Source: Lentisphaerota bacterium
GTDB lineage: Bacteria > Verrucomicrobiota > Lentisphaeria > Victivallales > UBA1829
DNA: 64,000 nt
Direction: 5' to 3'
NCBI GenBank assembly: GCA_015061915.1
Contig: SUVR01000001.1
Span: forward strand, 71,976-135,975
The notes beneath the pieces were generated by a model. That model had not been told where the DNA came from. It did no database searches and saw nothing but the letters and a program-made list of their open reading frames with translations. A program made the translations under genes and the position numbers. This document shows, in pieces, positions 30,193 through 52,003 of the stretch; within the stretch, counting starts at the first letter, position 1, and every line of letters begins with the position of its first letter.

Positions 30193-31419
30193 ATGGATCG
30201 GATGGATCTGACGGGAAAGGCGATCGTCTTTCTTGCGGACGGCATGGCAGATATGCCTGTGGAAGAACTGAACGGAAAAACGCCGCTGGAAGCAGTGGAA
30301 ACGCCCTTTATGGACAGCATAGCAAAGCAGGGTGCAAGCGGTACATTCCTGACCCTGCCGGAAGGTTTCCCCACTTCTTCCGATGCCGCCAATATGTCTG
30401 TACTGGGCTACAGCCTCGCACAGTTCTATCCCGGACGCGGTCCCATCGAAGCCGTCAGTCAGGGGATTGAGCTGGGACCGGATGATATTGCATTCCGCTG
30501 CAATCTGGTCTATGTGGAAGGCGACATCCTCCGGGACTATTCTGCCGGACATATCAAGCCGGAACACGCCAGGATCCTGATAGATGCCCTGCAGGAAAAA
30601 TTCGGCAGCGATAAAGTCACTTTCTATTCCGGTGTCAGCTACCGGAACCTGTTGATCCTTCACGGAAAAGAATTTTCGGCAAAGGTCGACTACTTCAAGC
30701 CGGATTCTTCTCAGGATCAGCCCGTTGCCGATCTGCCCTGGACTGCGCTGGATGACAGCATCGAAGCAAAAAATACGGTCGATATGCTGAACCGTTTGTA
30801 CGCTGACTGTGCCGCATTTCTGGCGGAACACCCGCTGGTCAAGTCCGGTACGGCAAAAGGAAACGCCATCTGGCCCTGGAGCCCCGGAAAGACCCCGGCA
30901 TTTACCCCCTTTGAACAGAAATATATGGCGAAGAAAGGGGCGGTCATCACTGCAGTGGATGTGATCTCCGGTATCGGTAAGTGCGCCGGTATGGATGTGA
31001 TCCCGGTGGAAGGCGCAACCGGATATATTGATACGAACTACGCCGGAAAAGCCGCTGCCGCCATCAAGGCGATCGAGGACCACGACTTTGTGTATGTCCA
31101 TCTGGAAGCCATTGATGAAACCAGTCATGAAGGGATCCTGAAACTGAAGATGCAGGCGATCAGTGACTTTGAAAACAAGATTGTCAAGCCCGTTATGCAG
31201 GCTCTGGAAGGACGCAACTGCACCTTTGCTGTTCTGCCGGACCACCCGGTTCCGTTGAAACTGCGGGCGCATACACGGACCCCTGTTCCGGTCGCCATCT
31301 GCGGACCTCATATCCAGCCGGATGCGGTGGAAAAATATTCCGAAAAGGATGCGCCCAACGGCTCCCTCGGCTTTATGAGCGGTGAGGAATTTGTCCGGAC
31401 GGTCCTGAACATCCGTTGA
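30193..31419 (+). CDS. Archaeal-type cofactor-independent phosphoglycerate mutase (ApgM family)
   Basis: A 408-residue member of the alkaline-phosphatase superfamily. The metal-site stretch VFLADGMADMPVEELNGKTPLEAVETP at the N-terminus is followed by GFPTSSDAANMSVLGY with the Ser nucleophile. The second metal-ligand region is near 310-330 (DFVYVHLEAIDETSHEG) and the final ligands are in VLPDHPVPLKLRAHTRTPVPV. This fits the ApgM/TIGR02535-type family, which interconverts 2- and 3-phosphoglycerate; some members were once proposed to be homoserine kinases. With PPi-phosphofructokinase at 52 kb it points to a non-standard glycolysis. GGAAAGGATCATATC precedes the start. Confidence 0.9.
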   Translation: MDRMDLTGKAIVFLADGMADMPVEELNGKTPLEAVETPFMDSIAKQGASGTFLTLPEGFPTSSDAANMSVLGYSLAQFYPGRGPIEAVSQGIELGPDDIAFRCNLVYVEGDILRDYSAGHIKPEHARILIDALQEKFGSDKVTFYSGVSYRNLLILHGKEFSAKVDYFKPDSSQDQPVADLPWTALDDSIEAKNTVDMLNRLYADCAAFLAEHPLVKSGTAKGNAIWPWSPGKTPAFTPFEQKYMAKKGAVITAVDVISGIGKCAGMDVIPVEGATGYIDTNYAGKAAAAIKAIEDHDFVYVHLEAIDETSHEGILKLKMQAISDFENKIVKPVMQALEGRNCTFAVLPDHPVPLKLRAHTRTPVPVAICGPHIQPDAVEKYSEKDAPNGSLGFMSGEEFVRTVLNIR

Positions 31420-31446
31420 GCGATCCCTCAATAGAATAAATGAGAA

Positions 31447-31473
31447 GCACGGTTTCCACGCCGTGCTTTTTTT
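31447..31473 (+). terminator. Terminator after phosphoglycerate mutase
   Basis: GCACGG (31447-31452) pairs CCGTGC (31461-31466), followed by seven T. It lies 28 bases after the stop codon. Confidence 0.8.
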
Positions 31474-31499: not shown

Positions 31500-31805
31500 A
31501 TCCGATTTTGTCCGATTTGCGTGACAAATAAATCCCCCCGTGCCGCGACGAAAGGAAGTTGAGTTGGGCGGCACAAGTAAGAGGGCGCTTTGCATTCCAT
31601 ACCTTTTGGCGTGACAAATAAATCCCCCCGTGTCGCGACGAAACGAAGTTGAGTTGGGCGGCACAAGTAAGAGGGCGCTCTGCGCCCCCTGTTTTTGACG
31701 GCTCCCCCTTACCCCCATACTGCGATCAGTCGCCCGTCAAAAACAGACCCGTTCGGATCACCGGGGAATGTTTCCCCGGCGACATTAAGGTGCGGCGCGT
31801 CAAAC
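31500..31805 (+). repeat. Folded dispersed intergenic repeat, copy 1 (with a 90-bp tandem duplication)
   Basis: This 306-bp stretch recurs in inverted orientation at 51661-51883. It holds a chain of perfect inverted repeats: GTGCCGC/GCGGCAC (31540-31546 and 31568-31574, again in the second unit), GGGCGC-TCT-GCGCCC (31673-31687), a long stem TGTTTTTGACGG/CCGTCAAAAACA (31690-31701 and 31734-31745) enclosing a small GCGA-TCAG-TCGC hairpin, and CCGGGGAA-TGT-TTCCCCGG (31761-31779). The left part, from GCGTGACAAATA, is duplicated with a 90-bp period (31519 and 31609). Short reading frames across it are by-products. It lies between two convergent genes. No transposase or terminal target duplication is seen. 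Confidence 0.85.
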
Positions 31806-31824: not shown

Positions 31825-31853
31825 AAAAAAGCCGGAGAGCAACCGTCTCCGGC
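31825..31853 (-). terminator. Terminator after the secreted protein gene at 31880
   Basis: GCCGGAGA (31831-31838) pairs with TCTCCGGC (31846-31853); on the minus strand the stem is followed by TTTTTT. Confidence 0.85.
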
Positions 31854-31879: not shown

Positions 31880-32476
31880 TCAGTTCCGACCGGAAAGTTT
31901 CAGGATCTCTTTGCAGAACAGAAGCGCCTCCTGGACTTCCTGCAGGTCATCTGCCGGACAGGATACCCGGAGTTTAATGATCTTCCCTTTACACAGGAAC
32001 ATAAGCAGAAGGGAGTGCATTTCTTCGCCGTTGGAACAGATCTTGAAACATTGCCCGGAAACGCCGGACGGCAGTTTCAGACCGGTCTCCTGCTTCACGG
32101 TCACGGACTCCACCAGACTGCTCCGTTCCGGCATAGTCCGGATGGACCGGACCACCGCAGCGAACTCCTGATCCAGTGCCTTCTGTGTCACCGGCTTCCC
32201 CTGGGAGTCCAGACTGTAGATGTAAACATCTCCGCAGGCGACCTCGTTCTGGTATCGGATGATCGTGCCGTAGACCGGATTCACGTTGCAGCTGACGGCG
32301 AACTTGTTATAGCCGCCGATCCGGCTGCCGAACTTCATGCCGGTAGCATCATCCTCAAAGACTTCATCCGCCGGACGGTAAACCACCTTGGGCGTGTCGG
32401 AAGCGCTCTCCTGTGTTTGACTCCACAAAAGACCCGTTCCTGCCAAAAGACTTGCGAGGATGATTTTTTTCCACAT
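31880..32476 (-). CDS. Secreted protein of unknown function
   Basis: A 198-residue protein with a signal peptide (WKKIILASLLAGTGLLWSQ). The mature part has four cysteines (in VSCNVNPVYG, NEVACGDVYIY, GQCFKICSNG and ISCPADD-like positions) that may form disulfides, and mixed alpha/beta character. I do not recognise a family. It begins 3 bases after the argH stop and ends at a strong terminator, so it is cotranscribed with argH, though a functional link is not evident. Confidence 0.75.
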   Translation of the reverse strand: MWKKIILASLLAGTGLLWSQTQESASDTPKVVYRPADEVFEDDATGMKFGSRIGGYNKFAVSCNVNPVYGTIIRYQNEVACGDVYIYSLDSQGKPVTQKALDQEFAAVVRSIRTMPERSSLVESVTVKQETGLKLPSGVSGQCFKICSNGEEMHSLLLMFLCKGKIIKLRVSCPADDLQEVQEALLFCKEILKLSGRN

Positions 32477-36385: not shown

Positions 36386-37201
36386 ATGACCTTCATGGAA
36401 ATGCTCAAAAATGCGTGGAAGATCAACAACTCTCTGGTGTGCGTGGGACTTGACCCGGACCTGAAGAAAATGCCGGATTGTGTCAAGAATGAAAAGTATC
36501 CCATCTTCGCTTTCAACAAGGCGATCATTGATGCCACCAAGGATGCCGTCTGCTCTTACAAACCCCAGGCTGCCATGTATGCCGGGATGAATGCAGATGA
36601 AGAACTGGGTATGACTATTGATTACATCCATGAAGTTGCCCCCGCAGTGCCGGTGATCCTGGATGCCAAACGGGCGGACATCGGCAACACCACCGCCATG
36701 TACGCAAAAGAAGCGTTTGAACGGTATAACGCAGACGCGATCACGGTCAATCCCTATATGGGCATGGATGCACTCAAACCTTTTCTGGATCGTGCCGATA
36801 AGGGCGTGATCGTTCTCTGCCGTACCAGCAACGGCGGCGCAAAGGAAGTTCAGGAACTGCGTCTGGAAAGCGGCGAAATGCTTTACCAGCGGATCGCAAA
36901 ACTGATCTCTCACGACTGGAACTACAATGGCAATACCATGCTGGTCGCCGGTGCCACTTTCCCGGAAGAATTGGGCGAGATCCGCAAGATCGTCGGCGAT
37001 ACGCCTCTGCTTGTTCCGGGGATCGGCGCTCAGGGCGGTGACCTTGCCGGTGTGCTGAAAAACGGTTTGACTGCCGACAAGACCGGTCTGGTTATCAATT
37101 CCTCCCGCGGCATTATTTATGCCTCCAATGGCACCGATTTCGCAGAAGCCGCAGGAAAAGCAGCGCAGGAACTCAAGGATCAGATCAACGCCCTCCGCTG
37201 A
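36386..37201 (+). CDS. pyrF: Orotidine 5'-phosphate decarboxylase (type 2 family)
   Basis: From the ATG at 36386 (AAAGGAAAACGATC upstream) it has 271 residues. It has SLVCVGLDPDLKKMP near the start and the catalytic LDAKRADIGNT motif near 88, the form found in the longer, Mycobacterium-type OMP decarboxylases. NSSRGIIYA near the end contributes phosphate contacts. It converts OMP to UMP, the last step of UMP synthesis. An ATG at 36368 is in frame but has no ribosome binding site. It ends with a strong terminator. Confidence 0.93.
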   Translation: MTFMEMLKNAWKINNSLVCVGLDPDLKKMPDCVKNEKYPIFAFNKAIIDATKDAVCSYKPQAAMYAGMNADEELGMTIDYIHEVAPAVPVILDAKRADIGNTTAMYAKEAFERYNADAITVNPYMGMDALKPFLDRADKGVIVLCRTSNGGAKEVQELRLESGEMLYQRIAKLISHDWNYNGNTMLVAGATFPEELGEIRKIVGDTPLLVPGIGAQGGDLAGVLKNGLTADKTGLVINSSRGIIYASNGTDFAEAAGKAAQELKDQINALR

Positions 37202-37244
37202 TTTTTATACGGAATCCGGAATTCTGCAGTTTGCAGTAAGGTAT

Positions 37245-37285
37245 GGGGAGAGTAATACGGTTCGCCGGAACTCTCCCCGTTTTTT
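37245..37285 (+). terminator. Terminator after pyrF
   Basis: Perfect 8-bp stem GGGGAGAG (37245-37252) with CTCTCCCC (37271-37278), followed by G and six T. The T-run overlaps the last bases of the convergent GH78-like gene. Confidence 0.85.
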
Positions 37286-38897
37286 ATGCAGATGTGATGC
37301 CATCAGGCAGACAGATCTTCTGTCCTTTTTTATCCGCTTCAATCGTGATCAGACCGTATGGCGTGGGAACGGTTCCGCTGATGTAATCCAATCCGCCCAA
37401 CTGCGGTTTGATCTGTACCTTCCGGAAACCGGGTTCGACCGGAGTGATCCCAAGTACTTTTTCACTGAGAAATGCCACCGGTCCGCCTGCCCAGCCGTGA
37501 CAGAGGCTGTGTCGCAGCCCTTTGTAACAGTATTTGCCAAAATCAGCGTGGATATCTTTTTTGCCTGCGACAGGCATGGAGTCGATCCCGAATGAGCCGT
37601 TGAGCCAATCGGTTTCAAAATCTTCCCAGAATGTGGTTGCACCTGCATCCAGCATACCGCCCCAATAGGTACGGATCAGATCCAGAGCGCCGTTCAGATC
37701 ACCGGTTTCCGCCCGTGCCAGCAGAACAAAATAGCCGTAGAAAGTACTGATCCCTTTATCAGGATTCTGTTTGAAGATCGCAGTATGATCCACTCCCAAC
37801 CCCAATGTTTGCATGGCGGCTGCAACTTTATTTCCATAGCAGTCCGGCGTGATCCTGCGAACCTGTTTTTCTGTATTCCGGCACAGGTCTGCCGTTCGGT
37901 TCATTCCCAATTCATCCGCCAGGAGACTGCCGGTTTTCAATGTCCATGCCAACAACCCCTGAAGACCGGCGTGTTTGATCTCCGGCATGGCTTCGGTAGA
38001 CCAATCCAGAAAACGCCATGCGGGCAGATCCTCTCTCCCGCTTTCATCCACATAACTGCACAATTGCCGGAGCAGATGATCCAGTTCGCCTTTCTGTTCT
38101 TCCAGCCATTGGCGGTTGTTCCGGTGAAGATACAATGTGTACAGGCAGAGGATCCACCAGCAGGAATAGCTGGGTGTTCCATTCATAAACTGATCCGGCT
38201 GCTTGCGGGTACGGAGAAAATCCATACTCCTTTCAATGAGATCATACTCGTTGAATACGGCAAGCATTGTACGGACTTCCGGATAAAGATCTCCCATCCA
38301 GACCAGACGGTCCCGCTTCACTCCATCGTAAATATATTCCTGACAGTTCAGATGGACGGTATAAGCACTGGTCTGCCAGATTTTGTTCAACCGTTCATCA
38401 CTGCTGTGGAAAGAACCTGCATAATCCCAATCCCGGTAAATCGCCCGGACAGCGGCGCAGAGCAGGTGCAGTTCCGGTTCTCCTTCCAGTACCTCCAGAT
38501 GGGCAAAACGGAACGCAGAATCGCCGAAGGAAAACTGTCCCAGCATCGGCAGCAGAACTGTTGTCTGATGGACAGCGTGGTCGGTGGTTGGCGTTTGCAG
38601 TGTCTCCGAGACCGATTCCCCCAGCGTGATACGCACATGAACTGCTTTCATGGAAACAGATGTAAGGCTGAATGCACCGTGCAGTTCTTTTCCAAAGTCA
38701 AAGATCACACTCCCGCCAGCGGGGATCGTACAGAATTCCGGATTAAAATGAAGATACGCCTGTGTTTCCAGTTTGCCGCAGAGGCGCTCTGCATCTTTTA
38801 CATCCCCCGTATAATGGACGATCCGGACGGGTGGTACCCAGACGCTTTTCCGTTCATCTTTTTTCATATCGGGATAGATCAGTTTGCTCATCCTCAT
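37284..38897 (-). CDS. GH78-like alpha-L-rhamnosidase family protein
   Basis: A 537-residue protein without a signal peptide. The beta-sandwich N-terminal part (FDFGKELHGAFSLTSVSMKAVHVRITLGES) is like the domain before the catalytic barrel of GH78. The (alpha/alpha)6 barrel follows from about 175, with the key acidic cluster in YDGVKRDRLVWMGDLYPE near 218 and a second Glu in TTFWEDFETDW near 430. The C-terminal beta domain ends with the usual PVEPGFRKVQIKPQLGG. These mark the Bac_rhamnosid6H fold. Substrate may be rhamnose or a related deoxy sugar. It overlaps the GH20-like gene by 4 bases. Confidence 0.85.
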   Translation of the reverse strand: MRMSKLIYPDMKKDERKSVWVPPVRIVHYTGDVKDAERLCGKLETQAYLHFNPEFCTIPAGGSVIFDFGKELHGAFSLTSVSMKAVHVRITLGESVSETLQTPTTDHAVHQTTVLLPMLGQFSFGDSAFRFAHLEVLEGEPELHLLCAAVRAIYRDWDYAGSFHSSDERLNKIWQTSAYTVHLNCQEYIYDGVKRDRLVWMGDLYPEVRTMLAVFNEYDLIERSMDFLRTRKQPDQFMNGTPSYSCWWILCLYTLYLHRNNRQWLEEQKGELDHLLRQLCSYVDESGREDLPAWRFLDWSTEAMPEIKHAGLQGLLAWTLKTGSLLADELGMNRTADLCRNTEKQVRRITPDCYGNKVAAAMQTLGLGVDHTAIFKQNPDKGISTFYGYFVLLARAETGDLNGALDLIRTYWGGMLDAGATTFWEDFETDWLNGSFGIDSMPVAGKKDIHADFGKYCYKGLRHSLCHGWAGGPVAFLSEKVLGITPVEPGFRKVQIKPQLGGLDYISGTVPTPYGLITIEADKKGQKICLPDGITSA

Positions 38898-49049: not shown

Positions 49050-49460
49050 GTGCGGAATCTCCATTGCGCAAATGCCCGTAAGGGCTCTGGACAGGCTGTC
49101 ACCGGCAGAGAAAAGCGGTAATATACACCGTTTTTTGCAGGTGGCGGCTTGATTCGTATTCACGGTTCGCCGTGATTTGGTAAAAACAACTGAAACAAGT
49201 TCAGGACTCCGGTTGTCGGAGACTTGAAAAAATTGCCGGACGGTCCGGTGATGAAAAAATGGTATGATCGTGGGTGAAACCGCAATTTTTGTGGAATCCG
49301 GCGACATCAGGGTTCGGGTGCAGGAACATTCGAGCATTGGTGTCGCGGTTCCGCCGGAAAAGCGGCAGTCGCGAAGAGCAGTTTTTTCAATCCCGACCAA
49401 CTGTCCGGCAGAAACATACACCCGGGTGCGCAAGTGCCCAAAGAAGAAGGAGGCATGATT
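49050..49460 (+). promoter_or_regulatory. rpsO-pnp spacer with a chain of RNA hairpins
   Basis: No gene is seen in these 411 bases. Hairpins in order: GCCC-GTAA-GGGC (around 49075), CGGT/ACCG followed by TTTTTT (around 49116-49138, a weak terminator), CACGG-TTCG-CCGTG with a UUCG loop (49161-49174), CTCCG/CGGAG inside CAAGT/ACTTG (around 49197-49228), and CCGGA-CGG-TCCGG (around 49236-49249). In E. coli the pnp leader carries an RNase III hairpin and PNPase autoregulation; a similar control is inferred here but with a different and longer array of stems. Confidence 0.5.
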
Positions 49461-51572
49461 ATGCCGGAAACAACTGTTACGATCAACATCGGTCCGGGCA
49501 AGGACATCACCCTTGGCACCGGCAAGCTCGGCGGGCTGGCAAACGGTCAGTGTACGGTCCGTCTCGGTGACACTGTGGTTTTCTCTGCTGCCTGCTCCGG
49601 CGCAGCGAAAAAAGGTCAGGATTTCTTCCCCCTGCAGGTCGATTACCGCGAAAAATTCTCTGCTGCCGGCAGATTCCCCGGCGGCTACATCAAACGGGAA
49701 GGCAGACCTTCCGACAAGGAAATCCTGATCTGCCGTATGGCGGACCGTCCGATCCGTCCCCTGTTCCCCGAAGGCTTCTTTGATGAAGTTCAGGTCTGCG
49801 GTCTGCTTCTCGCAGCGGACGGCATCAATGACGGCGACGTTCTCTCCATGCTCGGCGCATCCTGTGCGCTGTGCCTTTCCGATCTGCCGTTCCAGGGCCC
49901 CATCGGTGCTCTCCGCGTGGGCATGATCAATGGTGAATACATCGCCAACCCCACCAACGAAGAAATGGAAAAGAGCAGCATCGAGCTGGTCTATGCCGGT
50001 CTGCCGGATAAAGTCATCATGATCGAAGGCGAAGCCAAAGAATGCAGCGAAGCCGAACTGGAAGGCGCTATGCGCTTTGCCAATGAGATCGTGAAGAAAA
50101 TGTGCGCGGCCCAGGTGGAACTCATGGAAAAAGCCGGTCGCCCCAAGAAAGATCCGGAACTGCACATCGTGCCGGAAGATATGGCTGCTGCGCTCAAGTC
50201 CGTTACCGGCGAAAAGCTGGAAAATGCCTGCCTGATCCCGGGCAAGGAAGCCCGCATGAAAGCGCTGGATGAGATCCAGGCGGAAGCGGTGGAAGCCCTC
50301 AAGGCGGAATACGAAGAAAAGTATGGCGAAGAAGACTTCATGTTCTTCCTGAAGATGGGCTTTGACAAGCTCGTCCAGAAGATCATCCGTACCGCCATTC
50401 TCGAAAAAGGCTATCGTCCGGACGGTCGTGGCGTGACGGATCTCCGCCCCCTGACTGCCGATGTGAACGTGCTGCCGGTGGTTCATGGCAGCGGTCTCTT
50501 CCGTCGTGGTGAAACGCAGGCGCTGGTCATTGCCACCCTCGGCGGTCCCCAGGACGCACAGGAAACGGACCTCATCACCGGCGGTGTCTCCACCAAGAAA
50601 TTCTATCTGCACTACAACTTCCCCAACTACAGTGTGGGCGAAGTGGGCAGAATTGCCGGTCCGGGCAGACGTGAGATCGGTCACGGCAATCTGGCGGAAC
50701 GCTCTGTGAAGCAGGTCATTCCGGCGGACTTCCCGTACACGATCCGCTGCGTGTCTGAAATTATGTCCTCCAACGGTTCCACCTCCATGGCTTCTGTCTG
50801 CGGCGCTACGCTCGCCCTGATGGATGCCGGTGTGCCCATCAAGAGCCCGGTCGTGGGTATTTCCTGCGGTCTGGTGACGGATGATACCGGCAAGGAACTG
50901 ATCCTGACGGACATCATCGGTGCGGAAGACCATTACGGCGACATGGACTTCAAGGTCTGCGGTACGCTGGATGGTATCACCGGTTTCCAGCTGGACCTGA
51001 AGCTCCCCGGTATCTCCATTGATACCCTTGCTCGCGCTATGGCGCAGAACAAGGAAGCCCGCGCCAAGATCCACGGCGTTGTGCGTGACTGCATCCCGGC
51101 TCCCCGTCCGGAACTCAGCCCCCGCGCTCCCCAGATGGAAGTTGTCAAGATCAATCCGGATAAGATCGGCGCCCTCATCGGTACCGGCGGCAAGAACATC
51201 AAGGAAATCACGGAAAGCACCGGCGCTCAGGTTGATATTGCCGACGATGGTTCCGTGAGCATCCTCGCCCAGAACAAGGCTGTTCTGGAAGAAGTCAAGC
51301 GCAAAGTCCAGTTCTACACTGCGGAAGCCGAGATCGGCAAGATCTACCGCGGCGTGGTCAAGACCGTCCGCGACTTCGGTGCATTTGTGGAAATCCTCCC
51401 CGGTCAGGATGGTCTGCTCCATATCTCCGAAATGGCAAACTATCGCGTCCAGCAGGTCTCCGATATCTGCAAGGAAGGCGACTACCTGACGGTGAAGGTC
51501 ATCGACATCGAAAAGGGCAGCGGCAAGATCCGTCTCAGCCGTAAAGCCGCGCTGGATGAACTGGATAAATAA
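49461..51572 (+). CDS. pnp: Polyribonucleotide nucleotidyltransferase (PNPase)
   Basis: From the ATG at 49461 (AAGGAGG, 7 bases) the protein has 703 residues, the usual length. It has two RNase PH-like cores (first with FFPLQVDYREKFSAAGRFPGGYIKREGRPSDKEIL near 60, second with RGETQALVIATLGG and MASVCGATLALMDAGVP), the helical linker, a KH domain (IGALIGTGGKNIKEITESTGAQVDI near 560) and an S1 domain (VVKTVRDFGAFVEILPGQDGLLHISEM near 625). It degrades RNA from the 3' end with phosphate. The ATG at 49455 sits too close to the ribosome binding site. Confidence 0.97.
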   Translation: MPETTVTINIGPGKDITLGTGKLGGLANGQCTVRLGDTVVFSAACSGAAKKGQDFFPLQVDYREKFSAAGRFPGGYIKREGRPSDKEILICRMADRPIRPLFPEGFFDEVQVCGLLLAADGINDGDVLSMLGASCALCLSDLPFQGPIGALRVGMINGEYIANPTNEEMEKSSIELVYAGLPDKVIMIEGEAKECSEAELEGAMRFANEIVKKMCAAQVELMEKAGRPKKDPELHIVPEDMAAALKSVTGEKLENACLIPGKEARMKALDEIQAEAVEALKAEYEEKYGEEDFMFFLKMGFDKLVQKIIRTAILEKGYRPDGRGVTDLRPLTADVNVLPVVHGSGLFRRGETQALVIATLGGPQDAQETDLITGGVSTKKFYLHYNFPNYSVGEVGRIAGPGRREIGHGNLAERSVKQVIPADFPYTIRCVSEIMSSNGSTSMASVCGATLALMDAGVPIKSPVVGISCGLVTDDTGKELILTDIIGAEDHYGDMDFKVCGTLDGITGFQLDLKLPGISIDTLARAMAQNKEARAKIHGVVRDCIPAPRPELSPRAPQMEVVKINPDKIGALIGTGGKNIKEITESTGAQVDIADDGSVSILAQNKAVLEEVKRKVQFYTAEAEIGKIYRGVVKTVRDFGAFVEILPGQDGLLHISEMANYRVQQVSDICKEGDYLTVKVIDIEKGSGKIRLSRKAALDELDK

Positions 51573-51660: not shown

Positions 51661-51883
51661 GTTTGACGCGCCGTACCTTAGTGTCGCCGGGGAAAAGTTC
51701 CCCGGTGATCCGAACGGGTCTGTTTTTGACGGGCGACCAGTCGCATGAATGGGGGTAGGGGGGAGCCGTCAAAAACAGGGGGTGCAAAGCACCCTCCTAC
51801 TTGTGCCGCCCAACTCAACTTCGTTTCGTCGCGGCACGAAGGGATTTCTTTGCCGCATGGTTCGGACAATTCGGACAGCAAGG
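51661..51883 (-). repeat. Folded dispersed intergenic repeat, copy 2
   Basis: Reverse complement of the repeat at 31500-31805, without its tandem duplication. All stems are kept: CCGGGGAA/TTCCCCGG (51687-51705) with a different 3-base loop, TGTTTTTGACGG/CCGTCAAAAACA (51721-51732 and 51766-51777) with its inner GCGA/TCGC hairpin, and GTGCCGC/GCGGCAC. One hairpin differs by a compensatory pair of changes: GGGTGC-TTT-GCACCC here against GGGCGC-TCT-GCGCCC in copy 1. It lies between pnp and the phosphofructokinase gene, after the pnp terminator. Confidence 0.85.
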
Positions 51884-52003
51884 CACTTTTCAGTCATCCC
51901 GTTTTTTCGGCCTTCTCATAATAAATCAGCCCTTTGGGCTGTTCGCAGTACATGGGTGTCGGAAGGTAGGCGCCTTTTTTTCGGTTCATTTGTTTTTTGC
52001 GCC
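51884..52003. other. Intergenic remainder between the repeat and the pfp promoter
   Basis: Apart from a short CAGCCC-TTT-GGGCTG hairpin (51927-51941, no T-run after it) I see nothing definable in this stretch. Confidence 0.5.

Follow-up and report, generated by a model that had tools for sequence, protein, structure and literature searches.

A dispersed two-part repeat in a Lentisphaeria genus with the hairpin and T-tract layout of two candidate back-to-back intrinsic terminators

Introduction

For most intergenic palindromes that occur as repeats, there is no agreement on function. The stretch of DNA analyzed here, from a gut bacterium of the Lentisphaerota (64,000 nucleotides; hereafter the window), raises this question at 31500-31805, where an element of roughly 200 bp was noticed that occurs again, inverted, at 51661-51883. 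The initial annotation took its preserved stems as a sign of selection for a folded form, and proposed a MITE/BIME-like element moved in trans, a 3'-end mRNA stabilizer, or a family of small RNAs. In this study, we aimed to elucidate what the element consists of, whether its pairing is under selection, and which function its layout suggests. The genome of the window (G000; 2.49 Mb, 31 contigs, 97% complete) was compared with G001, a sister species and the only other genome of the genus in the comparison; both are draft assemblies.

Results

The element consists of tandem A units and a module B with sharp boundaries

Both copies were found where they had been reported, and the element has no coding capacity, as had been claimed. 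It is a non-coding repeat of approximately 200 bp in two parts, A unit(s) followed by module B, present at 14 places in the genome. The parts of the two window copies are as follows.

31689-31804 (+; C25:103664-103779): module B, 116 bp, CTGTTTTTGACGG ... GCGTCAAA
31605-31688 (+): A unit touching B, with hairpin 1 GTGTCGC..GCGGCAC at 31630-31664
31673-31687 (+): hairpin 2 of the A unit touching the first window B, GGGCGCTCTGCGCCC
31516-31593 (+): upstream A unit, partly decayed, with hairpin 1 intact at 31540-31574
31583-31598 (+): broken hairpin 2 of the same upstream A unit (31516-31593), GGGCGCTTTGCATTCC
51662-51778 (-): module B of the second window copy, behind pnp (49434-51572, +)
51779-51868 (-): A unit touching the second window B, with hairpin 1 at 51803-51837
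51780-51794 (-): hairpin 2 of the A unit touching the second window B, GGGTGCTTTGCACCC

Collecting the copies from the genome, the check initially proposed, gave 14 of B rather than two, and the alignment of the 14 loci defined its boundaries sharply (start, CTGTTTTTGACG; end, GCGTCAAA). In G001, B occurs about 10 times, two copies being cut by contig ends. It was not found in 118 further relatives, under filters that were stricter at more than 40 genomes and that very distant copies could escape. The A unit matched 46 times in G000 and 21 times in G001; in two other genera, its matches were no better than borderline. No match to the element was obtained in a plasmid collection, and none of the 10 viral-contig matches to a 17-nt core carried it. 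A contig scan with CGTCAAAAACAGACCC returned 104 stretches, and the inverted repeat described below was present only in those of the Lentisphaeria MAG RGIG8655.

A units are double-hairpin units of about 55-100 bp, arranged head-to-tail upstream of B in arrays of one to nine; nine are present at the clpX locus (L010), and one array has no B. They lie directly upstream of B in 12 of the 14 G000 copies and are missing at L013 and L016. The second window copy comprises one intact A unit and B (51662-51868, -). In the first, 31516-31593 and 31606-31683 form a 78-nt tandem duplication with 95% identity; hence, the part at 31500-31605 is an extra, partly decayed A unit. Orthologous loci may differ by replacement of the whole A unit: GTGCCGCGACGAAACG..GGGTGCTTTGCACCC in G000 stands against GTGCCGCGAACAAGCG..CACCCCTTTGGGGTG in G001 at pnp.

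Several other features were recorded around the arrays. A longer A-unit variant, with a nested palindromic repeat GCTTGTCCCGCCATAGCTTCAGCGACGGCGGAAG in its hairpin, lies upstream of B at L009, L011, and L012. Another palindromic repeat family (GCGAACAGCC.AAGGGCTGATTTATTTGTGCGCC...) is often found beside A arrays (window positions ~51920-51960, L005, L028, and L036). Repeated TGTCCGAAG motifs occur beside the A array of L003 and ahead of other arrays. Beside an A array, L003:1824-1869 (-) weakly matches Acido-Lenti-1 (RF01687), with 25.1 bits against a cut-off of 37.

Pairing is under selection in the hairpin that adjoins B

Hairpin 2 is perfect in all 19 units touching B, although their stem sequences differ, vs 3 of 21 units further up the arrays (Fisher 1e-8, units within one array not being independent). 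The upstream units with a decayed hairpin 2 are clear relatives of the B-touching units, as in L010. This internal contrast is the stronger test of pairing. Covariation points the same way. In B-touching units, the 13 tested pairs are all formed in each of 18 distinct sequences, and the 28 double-change cells give a covariation that none of the 500 shuffles or the slid versions reached; these cells are not independent events because replacement of whole units, and not only stepwise mutation, contributes to them. In hairpin 2, five of the six pairs are changed on both sides in some copies. The double change from GGGCGC/GCGCCC to GGGTGC/GCACCC that had drawn attention to the element is real (31673-31687 vs 51780-51794), and a third, unrelated stem, CACCCC/GGGGTG, is used in other copies.

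Little variation is seen within module B. Compensatory changes affect two pairs of its core hairpin and one pair of its inverted repeat (G-C to A-U); since all of them are in the diverged copies L013, L016, and L042, they amount to one or two events. Identity between orthologous B copies is 89.6-99.1%, above the 4-fold-site identity of nearby genes at every comparable ortholog (94.0 vs 63.5%, for example; the pnp pair offers only 57 sites). Gene conversion between copies may aid this identity in the main group. It does not account for L016/L042, which have private changes in common yet show 89.6 vs 63.6%.

Folding of single copies is only moderately unusual (z -0.7 to -3.4), and the support for folding comes from comparing copies. 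Pairing in the element is under selection, and the proposal of a selected folded form stands on this comparison. The initial annotation had named two lone copies, with pairing broken among relatives, as what would speak against its proposal; this is not what the copies show.

Each strand carries a hairpin followed by a T-tract

The features at the junction of A and B and inside B are listed below.

31689-31701 (+): left arm of the inverted repeat; TTTTT at 31692-31696 after hairpin 2, terminator-like on the plus strand
31702-31717 (+): C-rich gap, CTCCCCCTTACCCCCA, with almost no variation among 22 copies
31734-31746 (-): right arm of the inverted repeat; minus-strand T-tract (A's at 31739-31743) after the minus-strand hairpin
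31744-31804 (-): minus-strand hairpin of B; core CCGGGGAA..TTCCCCGG at 31761-31779; ends directly before the minus-strand T-tract

The inverted repeat, first reported as 12 bp, is an exact 13-bp repeat, CTGTTTTTGACGG/CCGTCAAAAACAG (31689-31701/31734-31746). Each arm contains TTTTT and the two T-tracts face inward; because they face each other, the repeat of 12-13 bp can be read as a by-product of their arrangement. The inner hairpin GCGATCAGTCGC described earlier is not conserved: it differs in L010 and is missing from L013, L016, and L042. The conserved part of the loop is CTCCCCC..TACCCCCA.

On the plus strand, hairpin 2 ends 3-4 nt ahead of the T-tract in every copy with both an A unit and an intact T-tract (18 of 18). 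Neither an A unit nor a plus-strand hairpin is present in L013, L016, and L042, and the left T-tract is lost in L012. On the minus strand, the sequence from the end of B to the second T-tract forms a single long hairpin in each of the 22 full-length copies. The reverse complement of B, rc(B), has a folding energy of -23 to -34 kcal/mol, and in 22/22 copies the base of its hairpin is only a few nt from TGTTTTTG; the outer stems vary, and the core and end point are constant. A G+C-rich hairpin followed immediately by a T-tract, the usual mark of an intrinsic terminator, is found on the plus strand in 18/18 copies with an A unit and intact T-tract, and on the minus strand in 22/22 folds. The T-tracts are short, with five T's located 2-4 nt after the stem. 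A generic terminator scan flagged the plus-strand and minus-strand sites in both window copies, with 6 and 4 sites vs approximately 1 expected.

Module B lies behind the 3' ends of genes

At 13 of 14 loci, B is located just behind the 3' end of the right-hand gene, which bears out the 3'-end position initially suggested; only the zinc-ribbon gene of L011 departs from this pattern. The genes followed by B include pnp, rho, clpX, and an rRNA operon. The element is not confined to convergent genes: the second window copy lies between the co-directional pnp and diphosphate-fructose-6-phosphate phosphotransferase genes. Most neighboring genes have a good terminator of their own beside B, so that B is often redundant. 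At L004, L012, and L040, no other obvious terminator was seen between the stop codon and B (18-26 bp apart). The first window copy is flanked by two such structures.

31445-31472 (+): hairpin and T-run behind the upstream phosphoglycerate mutase gene (30193-31419)
31831-31853 (-): beside the end of B, an ordinary intrinsic terminator belonging to the convergent gene 31880-32476 (-)

Two other readings of the element were considered. In the first, it is a DNA repeat of the REP/BIME-like kind; its hairpins would act at the DNA level, by binding a protein such as gyrase or IHF or as a cruciform, and would have no true part in termination. The tandem mosaic of hairpin units, their 3'-end intergenic position, the decay within arrays, and the swapping of units between orthologs agree with it, as does the occurrence of REPs mostly between convergent or co-directional genes (PMC3733652); the three TTTGACG motifs of B could be binding sites. 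It does not predict why only the hairpin adjoining the T-tract stays perfect, nor that a T-tract should follow the minus-strand hairpin, and we consider it possible but rather doubtful.

In the second, the element is a small-RNA family or a structured 3'-UTR RNA, trans-acting or stabilizing. Its folds are conserved with covariation and its unpaired C-rich loop is conserved, which speaks for such an RNA. The Rfam scan of the window gave nothing above the gathering score, and a permissive scan of four loci gave nothing credible. There is no promoter-like site inside the two window copies and no conserved promoter, the upstream context differs between copies, and the terminator of the neighboring gene precedes B at most loci. 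We consider this second reading very unlikely, and the small-RNA family of the initial annotation is not supported.

Copies come and go between the two species

B is present in both species at six loci (rho, pnp, a galE-like epimerase, L008, L011, and L016). Two loci are filled in one species and element-free in the other, indicating that copies come and go. At the pyrF site, the sister species has an A array and B, and the window has an ordinary 90-bp spacer. At the C21 site (L174, G000:C21), G001 has A+B and G000 has an unrelated hairpin-rich palindromic repeat (GCGCGGCGGCGGAGTACTGCGC...). B at clpX and L013 is found only in G000, where gene order differs too. As presence differs between species at several loci, the element is not needed at any one gene.

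37200-37293 (-): intergenic region between pyrF and the next gene, with no A or B; A array and B at this place in the sister species
L026:1465-1701 (-); G000:C1:73958-74134: truncated IS200-type TnpA fragment, the sole trace of a Y1 transposase in G000

A non-autonomous MITE-like element inserting beside terminator T-runs, moved in trans now or formerly, would account for the loci filled in G001 only (pyrF and C21) or in G000 only (clpX and L013), and for the fixed orientation beside T-runs. It would be expected to leave a target duplication; none is definable, because the filled and the element-free sites, two in number, differ across the whole intergenic region. No matching transposase was found, G000 having one truncated IS200-type fragment and G001 none, and no reverse transcriptase was found either. 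No terminal inverted repeats match a resident transposon, the inverted repeat of the element is internal, and no longer element with the same ends was present among the genome matches. With six loci common to both species, we judge this origin unlikely. Of the MITE/BIME-like element initially proposed, the BIME-like behavior holds; movement in trans is not supported, since most comparable loci are common to both species and neither a transposase nor a target duplication accompanies the copies.

Other identities were considered and rejected. Mobilization by a RAYT was set aside, with no intact Y1 transposase in the genus (G000 and G001), as was a retron or group II intron origin, with no reverse transcriptase in G000. 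For an intrastrand triplex (PIT element; PMC4666352), a third strand might be stacked from CCCCTT and GGGGAA; in several copies, however, the run reads CCCCTA. The layout of an integron attC does not fit.

A rearrangement was also noted at two copies. On contig C10, L012 and L011 lie 15 kb apart and are inverted relative to each other; in G001, the element connects the left flank of one copy with the right flank of the other copy (G000:C10:134446-149596 vs G001:C123 and C201). These junctions are consistent with an inversion between the repeats, and a misjoin at the repeat is possible because both genomes are draft assemblies.

Discussion

The hairpin and T-tract layout on each strand and the 3'-end position lead us to prefer a REP/BIME-like composite repeat that would work as two back-to-back intrinsic terminators. 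Termination was not among the functions suggested in the initial annotation. Polymerase coming through the A units would allow hairpin 2 to form and would stop at the left-arm T-tract; polymerase from the other side would allow the long B hairpin to form and would stop at the right-arm T-tract. The roughly 40 bp between the T-tracts would then be little transcribed. The C-rich gap might serve as a Rho landing site on plus-strand read-through transcripts, which is a guess. Copies may arise and be homogenized by recombination or gene conversion, or by an unseen mobilizer. We put about even confidence in the terminator reading: termination is predicted from sequence, many neighboring genes have their own terminators, and three copies are without a plus-strand hairpin. 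Nor does termination require that GACGG/CCGTC and the C-rich gap be conserved. An extended version, in which a self-spreading "stop cassette" with inward-facing terminators and a Rho-loading gap insulates genes in both directions, is multiplied by recombination without a transposase, and serves as an inversion site, seems improbable.

Among known systems, the element would appear to work most like bidirectional intrinsic terminators and uptake-sequence pairs, and to resemble REP/BIME in build and position. Compensatory evolution is documented for the bidirectional intrinsic terminators of convergent genes (PMC5381666), which share with the element compensatory stem changes under selection and location at 3' ends. 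Ordinary ones are single-locus and have one shared hairpin, whereas here a cassette with two hairpins is repeated. DNA uptake sequence pairs in Neisseria and Pasteurellaceae consist of two 10-nt repeats in one shared hairpin with A-/T-tails (PMC1852404); they are likewise dispersed repeats with terminator-like hairpins, enriched between convergent genes. Distinct from them, the present element has two separate outer hairpins with inward T-tracts, and no uptake role is known for it.

With REP/BIME, the element shares short palindromic units, tandem mosaics, a dispersed intergenic location near 3' ends, and the lack of coding capacity. It differs in copy number (14 B copies and 46 A-unit matches in G000 vs the usual >100 per genome), in its head-to-tail A units followed in fixed order by a unique 116-bp B, and in that no RAYT (Y1 transposase) partner was found in the genus. 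CGTC-tagged REPs have 8-9-bp stems, AT-first pairs, 4-5-nt loops, and CCA tails (PMC3733652). They are also palindromic and have no dedicated transposase, and CGTC occurs near the B end (GCGTCAAA); B far exceeds them in length, and its hairpins, compared by eye with the published description, differ in size and layout. The absence of target-site duplication at the two element-free sites sets the element apart from MITEs as well.

The same hairpin decays within an array and stays perfect beside a T-tract, a contrast by which selection for function can be told apart from copying alone. Should termination be confirmed, the inward-facing arrangement would offer genetic engineering a compact part, and a genus-specific repeat of the Lentisphaeria, a poorly studied group, would have become a transcription-insulating cassette that can be reused.
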